Below are positions 49,626-55,383 of a stretch of DNA of 62,931 bases, piece by piece; within the stretch, counting starts at the first letter, position 1, and every line of letters begins with the position of its first letter. The DNA comes from a bacterium (GTDB taxonomy: Bacteria; Electryoneota; RPQS01), in NCBI GenBank assembly GCA_013360195.1, contig JABWCQ010000002.1:1-62931 (forward strand). Reading direction: 5' to 3'. Below the pieces are notes generated by a model. That model saw only the letters and a program-made list of their open reading frames with translations, was not told where the DNA came from and ran no database searches. A program made the translations under genes and the position numbers.

Positions 49626-49647
49626 CCGGTAAGCAGTTTTAAGAATT

Positions 49648-49752
49648 AGGTCGCAGGTGTCCGCTACAGGCGGACGAAGAGGGAAGACGGTGCAAATCCG
49701 TCGCTGTCCCGCAACTGTATTGGGCTTGTTCCCTTAGCCAGGAGACCTGCCT
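49648..49752 (+). promoter_or_regulatory. Cobalamin riboswitch aptamer
   Basis: The conserved core GGTGCAAATCCGTCGCTGTC, then CCGCAACTGT (49689-49718), and the B12 box AGCCAGGAGACCTGCC (49736-49751) are textbook. P1 pairs GCAGGT (49653-49658) with ACCTGC (49745-49750). Adenosylcobalamin or a related cobalamin should lower expression of the four genes that follow. Confidence 0.96.
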
Positions 49753-49794
49753 GCGGCTTTCACCAGCCTTCGGAGACAAGGAAAGTGGTGGAGG

Positions 49795-49813
49795 CTCTTC
49801 GCATGTCGAAGAG
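49795..49813 (+). promoter_or_regulatory. Riboswitch expression-platform hairpin covering the Shine-Dalgarno
   Basis: CTCTTCG (49795-49801) pairs with CGAAGAG (49807-49813) around a five-base loop. The 3' strand forms the GAAGAGAG ribosome-binding site just before the TTG start (49817 or 49820). A competing pairing of AGCCTTC (about 49775) with GAGGCT (49791-49796) could undo it. Control at translation is therefore more likely than termination; no U-run follows. Confidence 0.65.
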
Positions 49814-49816
49814 AGA

Positions 49817-50374
49817 TTGTTGGAAAAAGCCGGCGGAGCAGTAAATCCTCCTCTGCTGTTAACGCGATCGGCCGCATTTATTGCGGTCGGGATCGCGCTG
49901 GGCTATCTTTTCGCCCCTGTTCCTAACGTTGAGTTAGTAACCGCCACATGCTTTTGTGCCGGTTATTTGCTCGGGTTCGGTGCAGGGGTTTTGTGCTCAA
50001 TCATGATCGAAGCGTTGTTTGCCGGCTTCCATCCCATGGGCAGCTCAATCGGCCTCATGCTGGTAGCACAGTGTCTTGGAATGGCAGGCGCCGGTGTGCT
50101 TGGCACTGTCTGCGCACTGCTGACTCGCAACAGAGCAAAGTGGCTAACCGCCCCCTTGGTGACGGGATTTGGTATCTTGTCAACGGTATGGTTTGATTTT
50201 CTAACCAACTTGGCCTTTCCCATTACCGCCGGTTTTTCTCTTTCACAGACAGCCGCATCTTTTGGCCTTGCTGCACCGTTTATTCTAATCCACCTGGTGT
50301 CAAACACAATCATTTTTTTGTTCGCCGTATCACCTGCGCTTCCGAAGCTCGTGAGAATGATTGAAAATCCATAG
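49817..50374 (+). CDS. ECF-transporter S-component-like membrane protein, probably cobalamin uptake
   Basis: The 185-residue protein has about six membrane helices with small-residue packing (FCAGYLLGFGAGVLCSIMIE; VAQCLGMAGAGVLGTVCALL), as in S components that bind a vitamin. It is first under a cobalamin riboswitch, so B12 or a precursor is the expected cargo. No EcfT or EcfA genes accompany it, and no BtuCDF. It may use a shared ECF module elsewhere or act alone as proposed for BtuM proteins. Cysteines C45, C47, C60 and C86 lie in or near helices; BtuM-type cysteine ligation of cobalt is conceivable but unproven. TTG start. Confidence 0.78.
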   Translation: MLEKAGGAVNPPLLLTRSAAFIAVGIALGYLFAPVPNVELVTATCFCAGYLLGFGAGVLCSIMIEALFAGFHPMGSSIGLMLVAQCLGMAGAGVLGTVCALLTRNRAKWLTAPLVTGFGILSTVWFDFLTNLAFPITAGFSLSQTAASFGLAAPFILIHLVSNTIIFLFAVSPALPKLVRMIENP

Positions 50375-50397
50375 CAAAGAATGATTGAGAATTTGAT

Positions 50398-52206
50398 ATG
50401 AAGAGAAGTACCATCATAGTAATTGCGATCCTTGTTCCATATTTGCTAAGCGGACAGACCCTGACGCGGACAGAAATGTCCACAATGTCCTATGAGGACT
50501 TGGCAGATTGGCTTCGGAGGCTGAATGGAACCTACTTGATGGATTATGGCGTAGCCGGTGCACCAATTGTCAACCGGCCGTGGGGTATGAATCCCTGGAT
50601 AGTAGGAACGCAACGCGATGGGATACCATGGTCGCGTGTCTCAGACGGGCTCTATGAATCCAACCTCGACACTCCTGAGGAGTTTGCAACAATTCGCTTG
50701 TCGACACTTGGCGAGGGCACAACGCCGACGATTGAATTGACTACGCGTCGACTAGCTACCGACTCAGCGACAACAGAATTCAGGCTACGAGAAGGATACT
50801 ATGGATTTGGACGGCTTGACTTTGCACACGGTCAAGAATTGTCTCCAAGAATAATCGGTGAAGTCCGAGGGAGACTTTTTTGGTATGACGGAATGAGGTC
50901 TCAGGCAGAGAACAGATATAGTGAGGCACGGTTTTATAATTTAGCGGGACGATTGAGCTATCAAATTTCGAACAAGATGTCCGGCGAGCTTGAGTACGGG
51001 GGGCAGAACGTTGATTCCAGGTCACCAGTTGTACTCCTGGAAAACAGTTTTGCACGTTGGCCTGAGATCTACACGGAGCGCGAGTTTGGAACCGCTTCAC
51101 TGAAATACAGGCTTGGATCCATCGGCATCAGGTTTGGGTTGCATGCTCGTCAGGATCGGGAGCAACGTACAGACCCTGCAAACGGTCATCGGATCTTTAG
51201 TCTGCGGGAACAATTTCATTACGGTTTTGCGGAAGGACGTGTTTCTTTTCGCAATGGTGAAGCTAGCACCAGAGTGGCCGCAGAGTCATCAGAATTCGGC
51301 TTTGACGATTCCGGTCATTTTGATCAGCATGCAGCCGGATTTGCTGCAGCAGCAAGACGGACATTCCGGTTCATTGAGTTATCCGCGCATGCGAATGTAA
51401 AGAGCCTTTCCGGGTCTTCTCAGGCTGGCAGCTCAAAAGTGGAATCTTTGCTTGGAATGTCGGCGCGTGCACCAGTAACATCAGGAGTGAGTTTATTCGG
51501 AGAAGGAGCCACTGCGAAGAGTACAGCACCTGCTTTCTGGCGGTATGCAAGCTTTAGCATAGTTAATCGTCCGCTCTTGGTTGATCCGGAGTTTGCCACT
51601 GGGCGATACTACTCCGGTGCGATTAGTAACGAGAACTCGGGAGAGTTTTCGATTGAAACAGACATTTGGACGGCTGGAGTGAATGTGAAAAGTGCGCATT
51701 CATCCTTAAGCCTTGGTTGGAAAGTTGTCGATAACTTGGGACCCCGATTTGTGTCAATCAATGACACAGTGTTTCTCCAGTCAGGGCATTCACAGAGTGG
51801 CAAATGGACAGGACCGGAATTGTACTGCGACTTACCCATAGTGCTAGGTATGAAAGTGCACTCTTTGTCAAGTGCACAGGTTGACAATAGCGACCTTACA
51901 AGGGCAATTCAGACACGTACCTTTACAAGACTGGTTTATCAAAACAAGTTCTTCAAATCAAGACTTGGTATTCTGGCATATGCGGCACATGAGCTGATCG
52001 GAAGGCACCGAACTGTTTCTGAAGTCGAATCGAAGGTTGTTGGTCCGGCGAACCTATTGCACTTTCGCATCGAGGGTACAATTGAGGGTGTAACTCTAAT
52101 TTGGGGTGCGGAAAATCTTACCGCTCAGCACTATGAATATCTTCCCGGGTACATGATGATCCGAAAGGAAGAGTACTTCGGGCTAAAATGGACTCTTAAG
52201 TTGTGA
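50398..52206 (+). CDS. Outer-membrane beta-barrel protein in the B12 operon, function unknown
   Basis: 602 residues with a signal peptide (MKRSTIIVIAILVPYLLSG, then Q) and many alternating strands ending in YFGLKWTLKL. There is no plug domain or TonB box: residues 20-110 are a polar N-terminal region (MSYEDLADWLRRLNGTYLMD), followed by barrel strands. It sits between the S-component and the BtuB-like gene, overlapping the latter. Its place under the cobalamin riboswitch implies a role in corrinoid uptake, perhaps as a second pore or a partner of the receptor. I do not recognise the family. Confidence 0.75.
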   Translation: MKRSTIIVIAILVPYLLSGQTLTRTEMSTMSYEDLADWLRRLNGTYLMDYGVAGAPIVNRPWGMNPWIVGTQRDGIPWSRVSDGLYESNLDTPEEFATIRLSTLGEGTTPTIELTTRRLATDSATTEFRLREGYYGFGRLDFAHGQELSPRIIGEVRGRLFWYDGMRSQAENRYSEARFYNLAGRLSYQISNKMSGELEYGGQNVDSRSPVVLLENSFARWPEIYTEREFGTASLKYRLGSIGIRFGLHARQDREQRTDPANGHRIFSLREQFHYGFAEGRVSFRNGEASTRVAAESSEFGFDDSGHFDQHAAGFAAAARRTFRFIELSAHANVKSLSGSSQAGSSKVESLLGMSARAPVTSGVSLFGEGATAKSTAPAFWRYASFSIVNRPLLVDPEFATGRYYSGAISNENSGEFSIETDIWTAGVNVKSAHSSLSLGWKVVDNLGPRFVSINDTVFLQSGHSQSGKWTGPELYCDLPIVLGMKVHSLSSAQVDNSDLTRAIQTRTFTRLVYQNKFFKSRLGILAYAAHELIGRHRTVSEVESKVVGPANLLHFRIEGTIEGVTLIWGAENLTAQHYEYLPGYMMIRKEEYFGLKWTLKL

Positions 52207-54128
52207 GAATACGTCTGGCAGTACTAAGTGCATTGATACTGCTTTCAGATGCACACTCCAGCGAAGTTTCGTTCACTTTGCCTGAAGTTACGGTCGTCGG
52301 CCTTCACATGAGTTCAATTAGCAGGTATTCTCGAGAAGATGTCAAACGTAGTGGCGCAAATTCGGCGGCCGAGTTTCTGAGTCGCGTTTCAGGACTTTCG
52401 ATACGAGATGACGGCGCATCCGGTGGAAAGAAGTTTGTTAGGTTGATGGGCGCGAATGTAAACCAAGTGCTTGTCCTGGTTGACGGAATTAGAATCGCAG
52501 AGGTGGGGAGCGGGGAATCTAATTTGAGCAGGATCGCTGCGGACGAGATTGAGTCAATTGAAATTGGTTTTGGCAGCCACTCAGAATACGGTGGCGAGGC
52601 GATTGGAGGTGTAGTCTCGATCCGCACGTCCATTCGAGCAAAGAGTGACATGCGAATTGGAGTACGGACCAACGACAAAAGTACATTGTTCGAATCTCAT
52701 AGATCACTATCGCACGGGAGTCTGCGCGCGTGTGTTTCCATAAGCCACGAAAAAGGCAGCGGCGCCTATAGGTATCGAATCACGGAGCAAGACGGGAATG
52801 GTTCGCACACTTTGAATCTCGGAGAAACGCGTCGCCGTGAGAATAACGACATTAACAAGTTTACCGTTCGTACAACTGTCATCCGTGAGTTGCAGCATGG
52901 TGAACTGCGTGGCGTGGCTGGCTTCGAAAAGTCCGAGTATGGACTTCCAGGCTACTTGGTACCGAGGGCAACACTTCTCGCTCGGCAAGAGGAAGAGTGG
53001 CGCGAATGGCAGTTGTCATGGATGCACAGTCTTAAGCGCAAGTTTTTCAGCGCTGCCATTGCCGCACAAAGTCACAACCGTGTATTCAATGACCCTGACC
53101 CGCTAAGTTATATTCACTTTTCTCACGAGAAATCTGACAGGTTGACGGGATCCTCTAGTTTTCAAACAAAGATTCTGGGAGGACATCTCAGCAACTCTCT
53201 GAGAATCGAGCATGAGCGTTTGTCAAGTGAAGTACTCAGCAATTCTTCCGCTCGCAGAAATAAGTGGCAAGTGGGCGCAACATTGAGCCGTACATTTGTA
53301 CTCTCAGCTCGAAGTGGTCAGCTCTTGCATGCTTCAAGTGGTACAAGTATCGAAAGATATGGTGACCAGGCAATTCAAGTACTCCCAAACGCGGAGCTAT
53401 GGCACTCGATTGGCGACAAAAACTCGATTAGAGTGGGAGCAAGACTCTCACGAGCATATCTGTCACCCAGTTTTTACTCACTGTTCTGGAACGATGAGTT
53501 GCTTGCGCAGGGCAATCCGGACTTGAGTCCTGAAGAATCTGAAATGACGCAGCTATTCCTGCGTGCGAAAACCGGCAATCCCCTGGAGTCGAACGTGGAA
53601 GTAACAGCCAGTCACAATAACGTGACGAATCTCATCTACTGGAGCCAGAGTTTTGATGGACGCTGGAAGCCCCAGAATTTGCGAAGAGCAGTTGTTAGAC
53701 AAATTGGAGTAAGCTACAATCAGGTGCTGGTACCTTCACTGCTTACTGGTTCAGCAAGAATGGAATGGTTAGACGCACGTGACAGAAGCGGCGAACGAGT
53801 CTCAGAGGGCAAATACCTGATCTACAGGCCGTTAAGAAGCGGTGGCGTTTCTCTGAATGCCACACTCTTTGGGTATAAGTGCTTTGTCCATTATCAATCA
53901 GTCGGCAGACAGGCAGTATTGGCAACAAACTCCAAGTGGCTACAGGGGTACGAACTAGTTGATGCAGGAGTTTTCAAGGAAATTGCTTTAAATGGCAAAG
54001 TCCTTGAAGTTGGAATCTCCTTTGACAATTTGACGAATACTGATTACAGGACAGTCCGGTTTGCGCCGATGCCCTTGCGGGAAATCTCAATTTCAATATC
54101 ATACAGCGCGGGAGGGAAAGTTGACTAG
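52203..54128 (+). CDS. TonB-dependent receptor, BtuB-like, probable cobalamin transporter
   Basis: It has a short signal peptide, a TonB box near residues 26-33 (LPEVTVVG), then a plug domain (SGANSAAEFLSRVSGLSIRD; VNQVLVLVDGIRIAEVGSGE; IESIEIGFGSHSEYGGEAIG; GVVSIRT) and a ~500-residue barrel ending with EISISISYSAGGKVD. The terminal residue is not aromatic, which is unusual. 641 residues, slightly longer than E. coli BtuB. Riboswitch control makes corrinoids the likely substrate. GTG start overlaps the preceding stop; the next gene starts inside its 3' end. TonB, ExbB and ExbD are not in the window. Confidence 0.88.
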   Translation: MRIRLAVLSALILLSDAHSSEVSFTLPEVTVVGLHMSSISRYSREDVKRSGANSAAEFLSRVSGLSIRDDGASGGKKFVRLMGANVNQVLVLVDGIRIAEVGSGESNLSRIAADEIESIEIGFGSHSEYGGEAIGGVVSIRTSIRAKSDMRIGVRTNDKSTLFESHRSLSHGSLRACVSISHEKGSGAYRYRITEQDGNGSHTLNLGETRRRENNDINKFTVRTTVIRELQHGELRGVAGFEKSEYGLPGYLVPRATLLARQEEEWREWQLSWMHSLKRKFFSAAIAAQSHNRVFNDPDPLSYIHFSHEKSDRLTGSSSFQTKILGGHLSNSLRIEHERLSSEVLSNSSARRNKWQVGATLSRTFVLSARSGQLLHASSGTSIERYGDQAIQVLPNAELWHSIGDKNSIRVGARLSRAYLSPSFYSLFWNDELLAQGNPDLSPEESEMTQLFLRAKTGNPLESNVEVTASHNNVTNLIYWSQSFDGRWKPQNLRRAVVRQIGVSYNQVLVPSLLTGSARMEWLDARDRSGERVSEGKYLIYRPLRSGGVSLNATLFGYKCFVHYQSVGRQAVLATNSKWLQGYELVDAGVFKEIALNGKVLEVGISFDNLTNTDYRTVRFAPMPLREISISISYSAGGKVD

Positions 54129-55383
54129 TCTCTTAGTTGCATTGGTCTTTATCGCAAATGTTTCGCTGGCAGCAAGAATATACGTCGTGAATTCATTGGA
54201 TGAAAGCCTTGGTTGGGCAGATACTGAGACAGGTGAATCTCATCCTCAAGCGGCAACGCTCGGTAACCTTGCCAACCATTTAGATGTTGATGGCAACCGC
54301 ATATTCGTCGTAAACTCTGGCCTTGGCACGCTTCAGATTATTGATAGATTGACTCTGCAAACCATCGATGAGTTCGCGGTGAATGGTGCGGTAAATCCGT
54401 ATGCTGCGGCAGTATTGGATGAGCAAAGAGTGGCAGTGACAGGGCTCCTCAGCGGTACGCTTTCTGTACTGTACATTGATTCCGGTATTGCCGATACGGT
54501 GTTCGTCACCGGCATCAGCCCACAAGCAGTCCACAGATTTGGTGACCAGATTTATGTACTGAACACCGGCGTGGATTTTCCCGAATACCATCAAGGAACT
54601 TTGAAGAGATACGATTTGGAAACTTACGAACTCGTGGATTCCATTTCTGTTGGAATTAACCCGCAGGACATGTTGGTCGTTGATGACGAAATCCACGTCT
54701 TATGCACCGGCAATTACCTCGACACTTTTGGGACAGTTGAAATCCGAGGAATGGAAACCCTTGAATTAGACACAGTACTGCATGTTGGGGGATCACCAGG
54801 CGCGTTCAGCAGTGACGGTTCGACAGTGTACATTGCCGCAGGCGGTTGGGCGGGTTCAGGACGCATATTTCGTTATGATGTGGGATCGAGAACTATTTTG
54901 AATGACGATAGCAATCCAATTTCTTGCGGAACAGGCGCTTCAGATATCATTTCTTTACCGGACGGCGGATTTGCAGTTTCCTGCTTTGTCAGCGCAACTG
55001 TTGAGCACCGTACTTCATCTGGGGAACTGCAACGTGAGTTTCTGATGTCCGCCGGTACTGGTGCAATTGACATGTTCGAATTACCGAGTTACTCTGAACC
55101 AGTAGAAGTCGTTCCAAACTCCCGGGCAATTGTCAAGGCGTACCCGAATCCGTTCAATTCTGTCTTAATTCTTGAAATTTCAGGTGTTAACACAGCCTCC
55201 GCCGTGGATATCGTTGACATTTCCGGGCGCTCAGTTGCTTCACTGCCAGTGGAATCTGGCCAAGACCGGGTATTCTGGAAACCTTCTAACGCTTCCAGTT
55301 ACCATGTTGCTTCCGGCTGTTACTTTGCACGGCTGCGGTCACCAGAACAAGGTAGACCAGTTAAGCTCTTATATATAAAATAA
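54121..55383 (+). CDS. Secreted beta-propeller (YncE/BtuG-like) with type IX-like C-terminal sorting domain
   Basis: The signal peptide TSLLVALVFIANVSLAA is followed by about seven beta-propeller blades (DVDGNRIFVVNSGLGTLQII; RFGDQIYVLNTGVDFPEY; SSDGSTVYIAAGGWAGSGRI). The last ~85 residues are a sorting-type domain beginning AYPNPFNSVLILEIS (Y341) and closing with GCYFARLRSP..KLLYIK. In Bacteroides, BtuG is a beta-propeller lipoprotein that grabs B12 for BtuB; here the propeller lies beside a BtuB-like gene but has no lipobox. TTG at 54121 is placed five bases after GGAGG (54111-54115). 420 residues. B12 binding is inferred from context. Confidence 0.82.
   Translation: MTSLLVALVFIANVSLAARIYVVNSLDESLGWADTETGESHPQAATLGNLANHLDVDGNRIFVVNSGLGTLQIIDRLTLQTIDEFAVNGAVNPYAAAVLDEQRVAVTGLLSGTLSVLYIDSGIADTVFVTGISPQAVHRFGDQIYVLNTGVDFPEYHQGTLKRYDLETYELVDSISVGINPQDMLVVDDEIHVLCTGNYLDTFGTVEIRGMETLELDTVLHVGGSPGAFSSDGSTVYIAAGGWAGSGRIFRYDVGSRTILNDDSNPISCGTGASDIISLPDGGFAVSCFVSATVEHRTSSGELQREFLMSAGTGAIDMFELPSYSEPVEVVPNSRAIVKAYPNPFNSVLILEISGVNTASAVDIVDISGRSVASLPVESGQDRVFWKPSNASSYHVASGCYFARLRSPEQGRPVKLLYIK

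Follow-up and report, generated by a model that had tools for sequence, protein, structure and literature searches.

A cobalamin riboswitch operon encoding a BtuG-like beta-propeller with a type IX sorting tail: a probable B12 uptake system

Can a B12-capturing propeller serve as a receptor lid when it carries a type IX sorting tail in place of a lipid anchor? In published accounts, BtuG and lidded TonB receptors occur exclusively in Bacteroidetes and take lipoprotein form (PMC6143338, PMC10404256). The question is raised by the window analysed here (the whole stretch of DNA, 62,931 nucleotides), in which an earlier note had placed a four-gene B12 capture module under one cobalamin riboswitch. 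A cobalamin riboswitch aptamer was indeed found at 49638..49768 on the forward strand (RF00174, 94.3 bits against a gathering score of 31.5, full model 1-189), and it is the single RF00174 match across the 3.23 Mb genome, which is 95.8% complete. Downstream of it lie four closely packed genes on the same strand, encoding an S-component-like protein, a second barrel, a BtuB-like receptor and the propeller. Their order is kept in same-family genomes where contigs are long enough, and the sorting tail of the propeller is present in 10/10 of the same-family genomes. Such recurrence of both gene order and tail is more than chance, and on the latter count a chance origin of the tail was rejected. 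Judged from its sequence, the operon as a whole is likely to direct cobalamin-repressed uptake of B12 (corrinoid) of the BtuBG kind, with the propeller as a type IX-delivered lid.

The host would have a use for such a system. Two proteins with a B12-binding domain are encoded in the genome, one of 155 aa and one within a 1239-aa frame, the size of which is consistent with MetH. A search of the assembly (3.23 Mb, 95.8% complete) gave no CbiC. Given the presence of B12-binding proteins and the missing CbiC, the host probably scavenges B12.

The first gene encodes an ECF S-component-like inner-membrane protein of 185 aa (49817..50374, forward strand; exact start uncertain). The protein itself gave no direct Pfam match, and its homology was recognised via family members, with L065 and L073 matching PF12822 (44.5 and 38.3 bits, cut-off 30.7). 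These matches place it in the S-component sequence family and bear out its earlier description as S-component-like. It probably provides the inner-membrane step for B12. EcfT (PF02361) was not found in the 95.8% complete genome, and FecCD matches of 24.9-34 bits were rejected as BtuC because they were too weak, leaving a genome that appears to be without a clear BtuC. For these reasons the S-component-like protein may work alone, as has been proposed for BtuM (PMC6072759). As with BtuM and other solitary S-components, a small S-component-type membrane protein is found beside BtuB and no EcfT was found in this genome. However, BtuM has an invariant cobalt-ligating cysteine (PMC6072759), whereas there is no invariant cysteine in the alignment of the present family. 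In one relative, L079 (12311-14614, reverse strand), a single 767-aa frame is matched by the S-component family as well as by that of the second barrel, and where the two parts join it has a segment resembling a signal peptide; the two genes are either fused here or have lost the stop codon between them.

The third gene encodes a TonB-dependent receptor of 641 aa (52203..54128, forward strand) with plug (PF07715, 64.7 bits) and barrel (PF00593, 33.6 bits) domains, and a TonB-box-like LPEVTVVG near the N-terminus, ahead of the plug (alignment A5). It thus combines the plug, TonB-dependent barrel and TonB box expected of BtuB, in agreement with the earlier assignment. Among NCBIfam models it scores highest against that of the B12 receptor, TIGR01779. 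The score of 115 bits is far under the cut-off of 599.7, and therefore the receptor is described here as BtuB-like rather than as a BtuB orthologue. The second gene (50398..52206, forward strand, 602 aa) had been called an unknown barrel, a label that can now be replaced. The profile of this family matches that of the BtuB-like receptor family with 99.2% probability over 525 columns, and in the homologue L071 both domains are clear, Plug scoring 62.8 bits and the barrel 58.2 bits. The idea of a new family was accordingly rejected; the protein is a paralogue of the BtuB-like receptor in which the plug is eroded. The mature protein appears to start at the plug-like segment, with no TonB box visible (alignment A2). 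An AlphaFold2 model of this barrel from six sequences reached a pLDDT of 47.7 and was left out of the results. Where the contig is long enough, every locus found to encode the plug-eroded receptor encodes the S-component too, which suggests that the two act together.

The propeller is encoded by the last gene (54121..55383, forward strand). Its likely start is the TTG at 54121, which overlaps the stop of the BtuB-like gene and has a ribosome-binding site, GGGAGG, at 54110-54115; the references used in propeller searches started at 54124, one codon past this TTG. The N-terminal Sec signal peptide, MTSLLVALVFIANVSLA, occupies 54121..54171 on the forward strand (recognised from the sequence, boundary by eye; helix at residues 2-11 in the model). 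Counted from this TTG, the protein is free of cysteine up to about residue 194. There is therefore no lipobox, and the propeller was rejected as a lipoprotein for want of an N-terminal cysteine. The propeller domain (54175..55077, forward strand; model residues 18-318) consists entirely of strands, mostly at pLDDT >90. It is succeeded by a C-terminal sorting domain (55126..55380, forward strand; model residues 335-417) that reads AYPNPFNS...KLLYIK. This tail passes TIGR04183 (25.0 bits, cut-off 23) and is narrowly under the gathering cut-off of PF18962 (23.6 bits vs 27). Together with the seven strands in the model, the number published for the fold of type A sorting domains (PMC11285876), this identifies a type A C-terminal sorting domain. 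The plain signal peptide, the lack of a lipobox and the AYPNPFNS sorting-type domain were thus all as first described.

An AlphaFold2 model of the propeller protein (36-row alignment, mean pLDDT 90.5) comprises a propeller, a disordered linker and the seven-stranded C-terminal domain. The top Foldseek match of the propeller model is an archaeal YVTN surface-layer propeller, and ranks 2-17 are taken entirely by entries for BtuG1, BtuG2 or BtuG3 or by 3DSM, the structure of BtuG from Bacteroides uniformis. With the exception of the fused chain 8blw_B, the BtuG matches have a target-normalised TM of 0.73-0.80 and an rmsd of 3.0-3.6 A. A structure prediction of the propeller alone therefore agrees with the proposal of a BtuG-like protein. 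Identity to BtuG is ~15-19%, and the archaeal propeller scores above BtuG by sequence profile alone, so that the assignment as BtuG-like draws on the predicted fold in combination with gene context.

How far this likeness extends to the ligand pocket was assessed from 92 distinct related propellers, most of which come from FCB-group genomes and have a BtuB-like gene as neighbour. The relatives were collected with a narrower alignment, as a diverse one offered no stretch suitable for searching; scanning named genomes with a single protein gave no propeller relatives. The BtuG2 sequence for alignment was taken from L223, which matches chain 8bmx_D end to end. The position of Tyr239 in the BtuG2 ligand loop is aromatic in 89/92 propellers. 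The pocket residues Trp194, Trp272, Tyr316 and Tyr335 are not conserved among the 92, suggesting that the pocket differs from that of BtuG2 in detail. Such divergence would also be expected if the operon imports B12 but the propeller serves some other ligand or purpose, such as that of a generic surface YVTN propeller that binds no corrinoid; propellers of the YVTN type are diverse, and the archaeal surface-layer protein is the best structural match. However, BtuG entries occupy the next 16 Foldseek ranks and cobalamin riboswitches head propeller loci across phyla (loci that were partly picked by a B12-box-like motif), making a non-corrinoid role very unlikely. The propeller most likely works like BtuG, and it is acidic (pI ~4.2), which may be compared with the negative ligand face of BtuG.

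Comparison with the Bacteroides thetaiotaomicron BtuB-BtuG system (PMC6143338, PMC10404256) reveals further likenesses. Both are under cobalamin riboswitch control, in both a TonB-dependent BtuB-like receptor adjoins a propeller of the seven-bladed type (predicted, in the present case), and BtuG1/2/3 are the nearest solved folds after the archaeal propeller. In contrast, BtuG has a lipobox and lipoprotein export signal where the present protein has a sorting tail, and the propeller gene is downstream of the receptor rather than upstream. Moreover, BtuCDF was not found in the present genome, the pocket tryptophans and tyrosines differ, and the operon contains the additional receptor paralogue and S-component. 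As it has no lipobox, the propeller does not strictly belong to BtuG; the system is a variant of BtuBG.

If the propeller is delivered by its tail, the genome should encode a type IX translocon. The search for porU, porV and sov homologues found all three: PorU (633 bits, cut-off 420) with PorV alongside it on the contig of the window, and SprA/Sov (730 bits, cut-off 200), so a lack of type IX genes is ruled out. The porU and porV genes adjoin at G000:C2:100155-104250, ~37 kb downstream of the end of the window. At least 150 type IX sorting tails are encoded in the genome. The tail could nevertheless be no working sorting signal, leaving the propeller in the periplasm, and its score slightly under the Pfam gathering cut-off is in keeping with this. 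Given that the tail passes TIGR04183, is retained throughout the same-family genomes and coexists with PorU, PorV, Sov and the many other tails, we consider a periplasmic propeller barely credible. Export by the type IX route is further suggested by resemblance to known cargo with type A domains, which share the signal peptide, seven-stranded domain, PNPF motif and conserved Lys-rich end, and come from genomes that likewise contain PorU, PorV and Sov (PMC11285876). The present cargo differs in being a putative vitamin-capture lid, from a lineage outside the classical Bacteroidota. The core T9SS proteins are missing from Bacteroides and may exist in other FCB phyla (PMC11285876). This fits with the BtuG of Bacteroides, which is known solely in lipoprotein form.

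The related propellers do not share a single anchor. Many of the 92 belong to named records, with the labels Calditrichota, KSB1, LCP-89, Zixibacteria, Cloacimonadota, Marinimicrobia, WOR-3, Gemmatimonadota and Ignavibacteria. A sorting tail was found in 43, a lipobox in 36 and a dockerin-like tail in 13 (tail types were assigned by script, with ~10 decided by eye). On a quick tree anchor type changes at least 13 times, in either direction, and the well-supported branches by themselves force fewer changes (4, 3 and 2 by group). The clearest swap is in family f7, where the close kin L065 and L066 have a sorting tail and L067, L069 and L073 a lipobox. SprA is present in 5/5 genomes tested, including one with the lipobox form and one with the dockerin form. 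As SprA is there whatever the tail, anchor type is, on this genomic evidence, not dictated by a missing translocon.

Dockerin-like repeats end many of the Zixibacteria-side propellers found in this operon slot (L110, L117, L119, L121, L122, L125, L127, L134, L139, L140 and L143), and likewise those of L075 and L090. Pfam Dockerin_1 is over its cut-off in L110 and L121 and under it in L075. These tails imply another route of surface attachment. Tandem propellers were observed within one locus in L111, L114 and L116, and also in L174, L175, L191 and L194; one propeller of the pair has a sorting tail, whereas the other has none and in most cases bears a lipobox.

Sorting-tailed propellers also lie behind BtuB-like genes in genomes from the Ignavibacteria-side phylum to which a Melioribacteraceae record belongs, a phylum that we take to be Bacteroidota in GTDB's broad sense. 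Cobalamin riboswitches were found in 14/14 scanned loci of this phylum, a biased rate in that the loci were preselected for long frames and a B12-box-like motif; the same preselection bias applies to a second set of loci (10/10). The earlier suggestion of type IX-like delivery outside Bacteroidota is therefore upheld as regards the type IX signals and genes, but such propellers are, as far as these records indicate, not strictly confined to lineages outside that phylum.

A BtuB-like gene is found no more than 400 bp upstream of the propeller in 65/85 loci, these being the loci with >1.5 kb of sequence upstream of it. This adjacency bears on whether the propeller, once displayed or released by type IX secretion, binds B12 close to the receptor as a trap, either surface-held or free, in the manner of BtuH, instead of acting as a lid on BtuB. 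In L066, L067 and L068 the propeller directly follows a cobalamin riboswitch of its own and lacks an adjacent upstream BtuB-like gene, as might be expected of such a trap. Furthermore, type IX cargo can be anchored to polysaccharide or released (PMC10202324), neither of which need place it on BtuB. Against this, the receptor gene is adjacent in most loci and the fold resembles BtuG, itself a lid (PMC10404256), and we regard a trap as improbable. BtuH and DUF4465 proteins are also accessory B12-binding surface proteins from riboswitch-controlled loci, but with jelly-roll type domains instead of a propeller (PMC8941943, PMC13398666).

In the preferred reading, the propeller would act as an extracellular lid that catches B12 and passes it to the TonB-dependent BtuB-like barrel, with the S-component-like protein probably moving B12 over the inner membrane. 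The lid itself would cross the inner membrane by Sec, and its C-terminal domain would take it through the type IX translocon (Sov/PorV). PorU would then cleave off this domain and tether the C-terminus of the lid to surface polysaccharide. The two ends of a propeller normally meet in one blade, and hence a tether at the C-terminus could provide the hinge that BtuG owes to its N-terminal lipid.

More broadly, the lid may be an anchor-independent module, in which one type of propeller and operon slot has repeatedly exchanged lipoprotein export, type IX tail and dockerin across the FCB group; we hold this proposal to be evenly balanced. No paper on a type IX-delivered BtuG was found in the open-access literature, most subscription papers lying outside the search. 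These data point to a BtuG-type lid recurring in many FCB phyla, where a type IX tail or a dockerin takes the place of the lipid anchor. If the module is indeed anchor-independent, the lids of TonB receptors could hinge on a C-terminal tether, and dockerin tails would be a third, undescribed route of surface attachment. The natural swap pairs offer a means to test what the tether of a lid must do and, if the overall interpretation is true, vitamin capture would join the jobs of type IX secretion.
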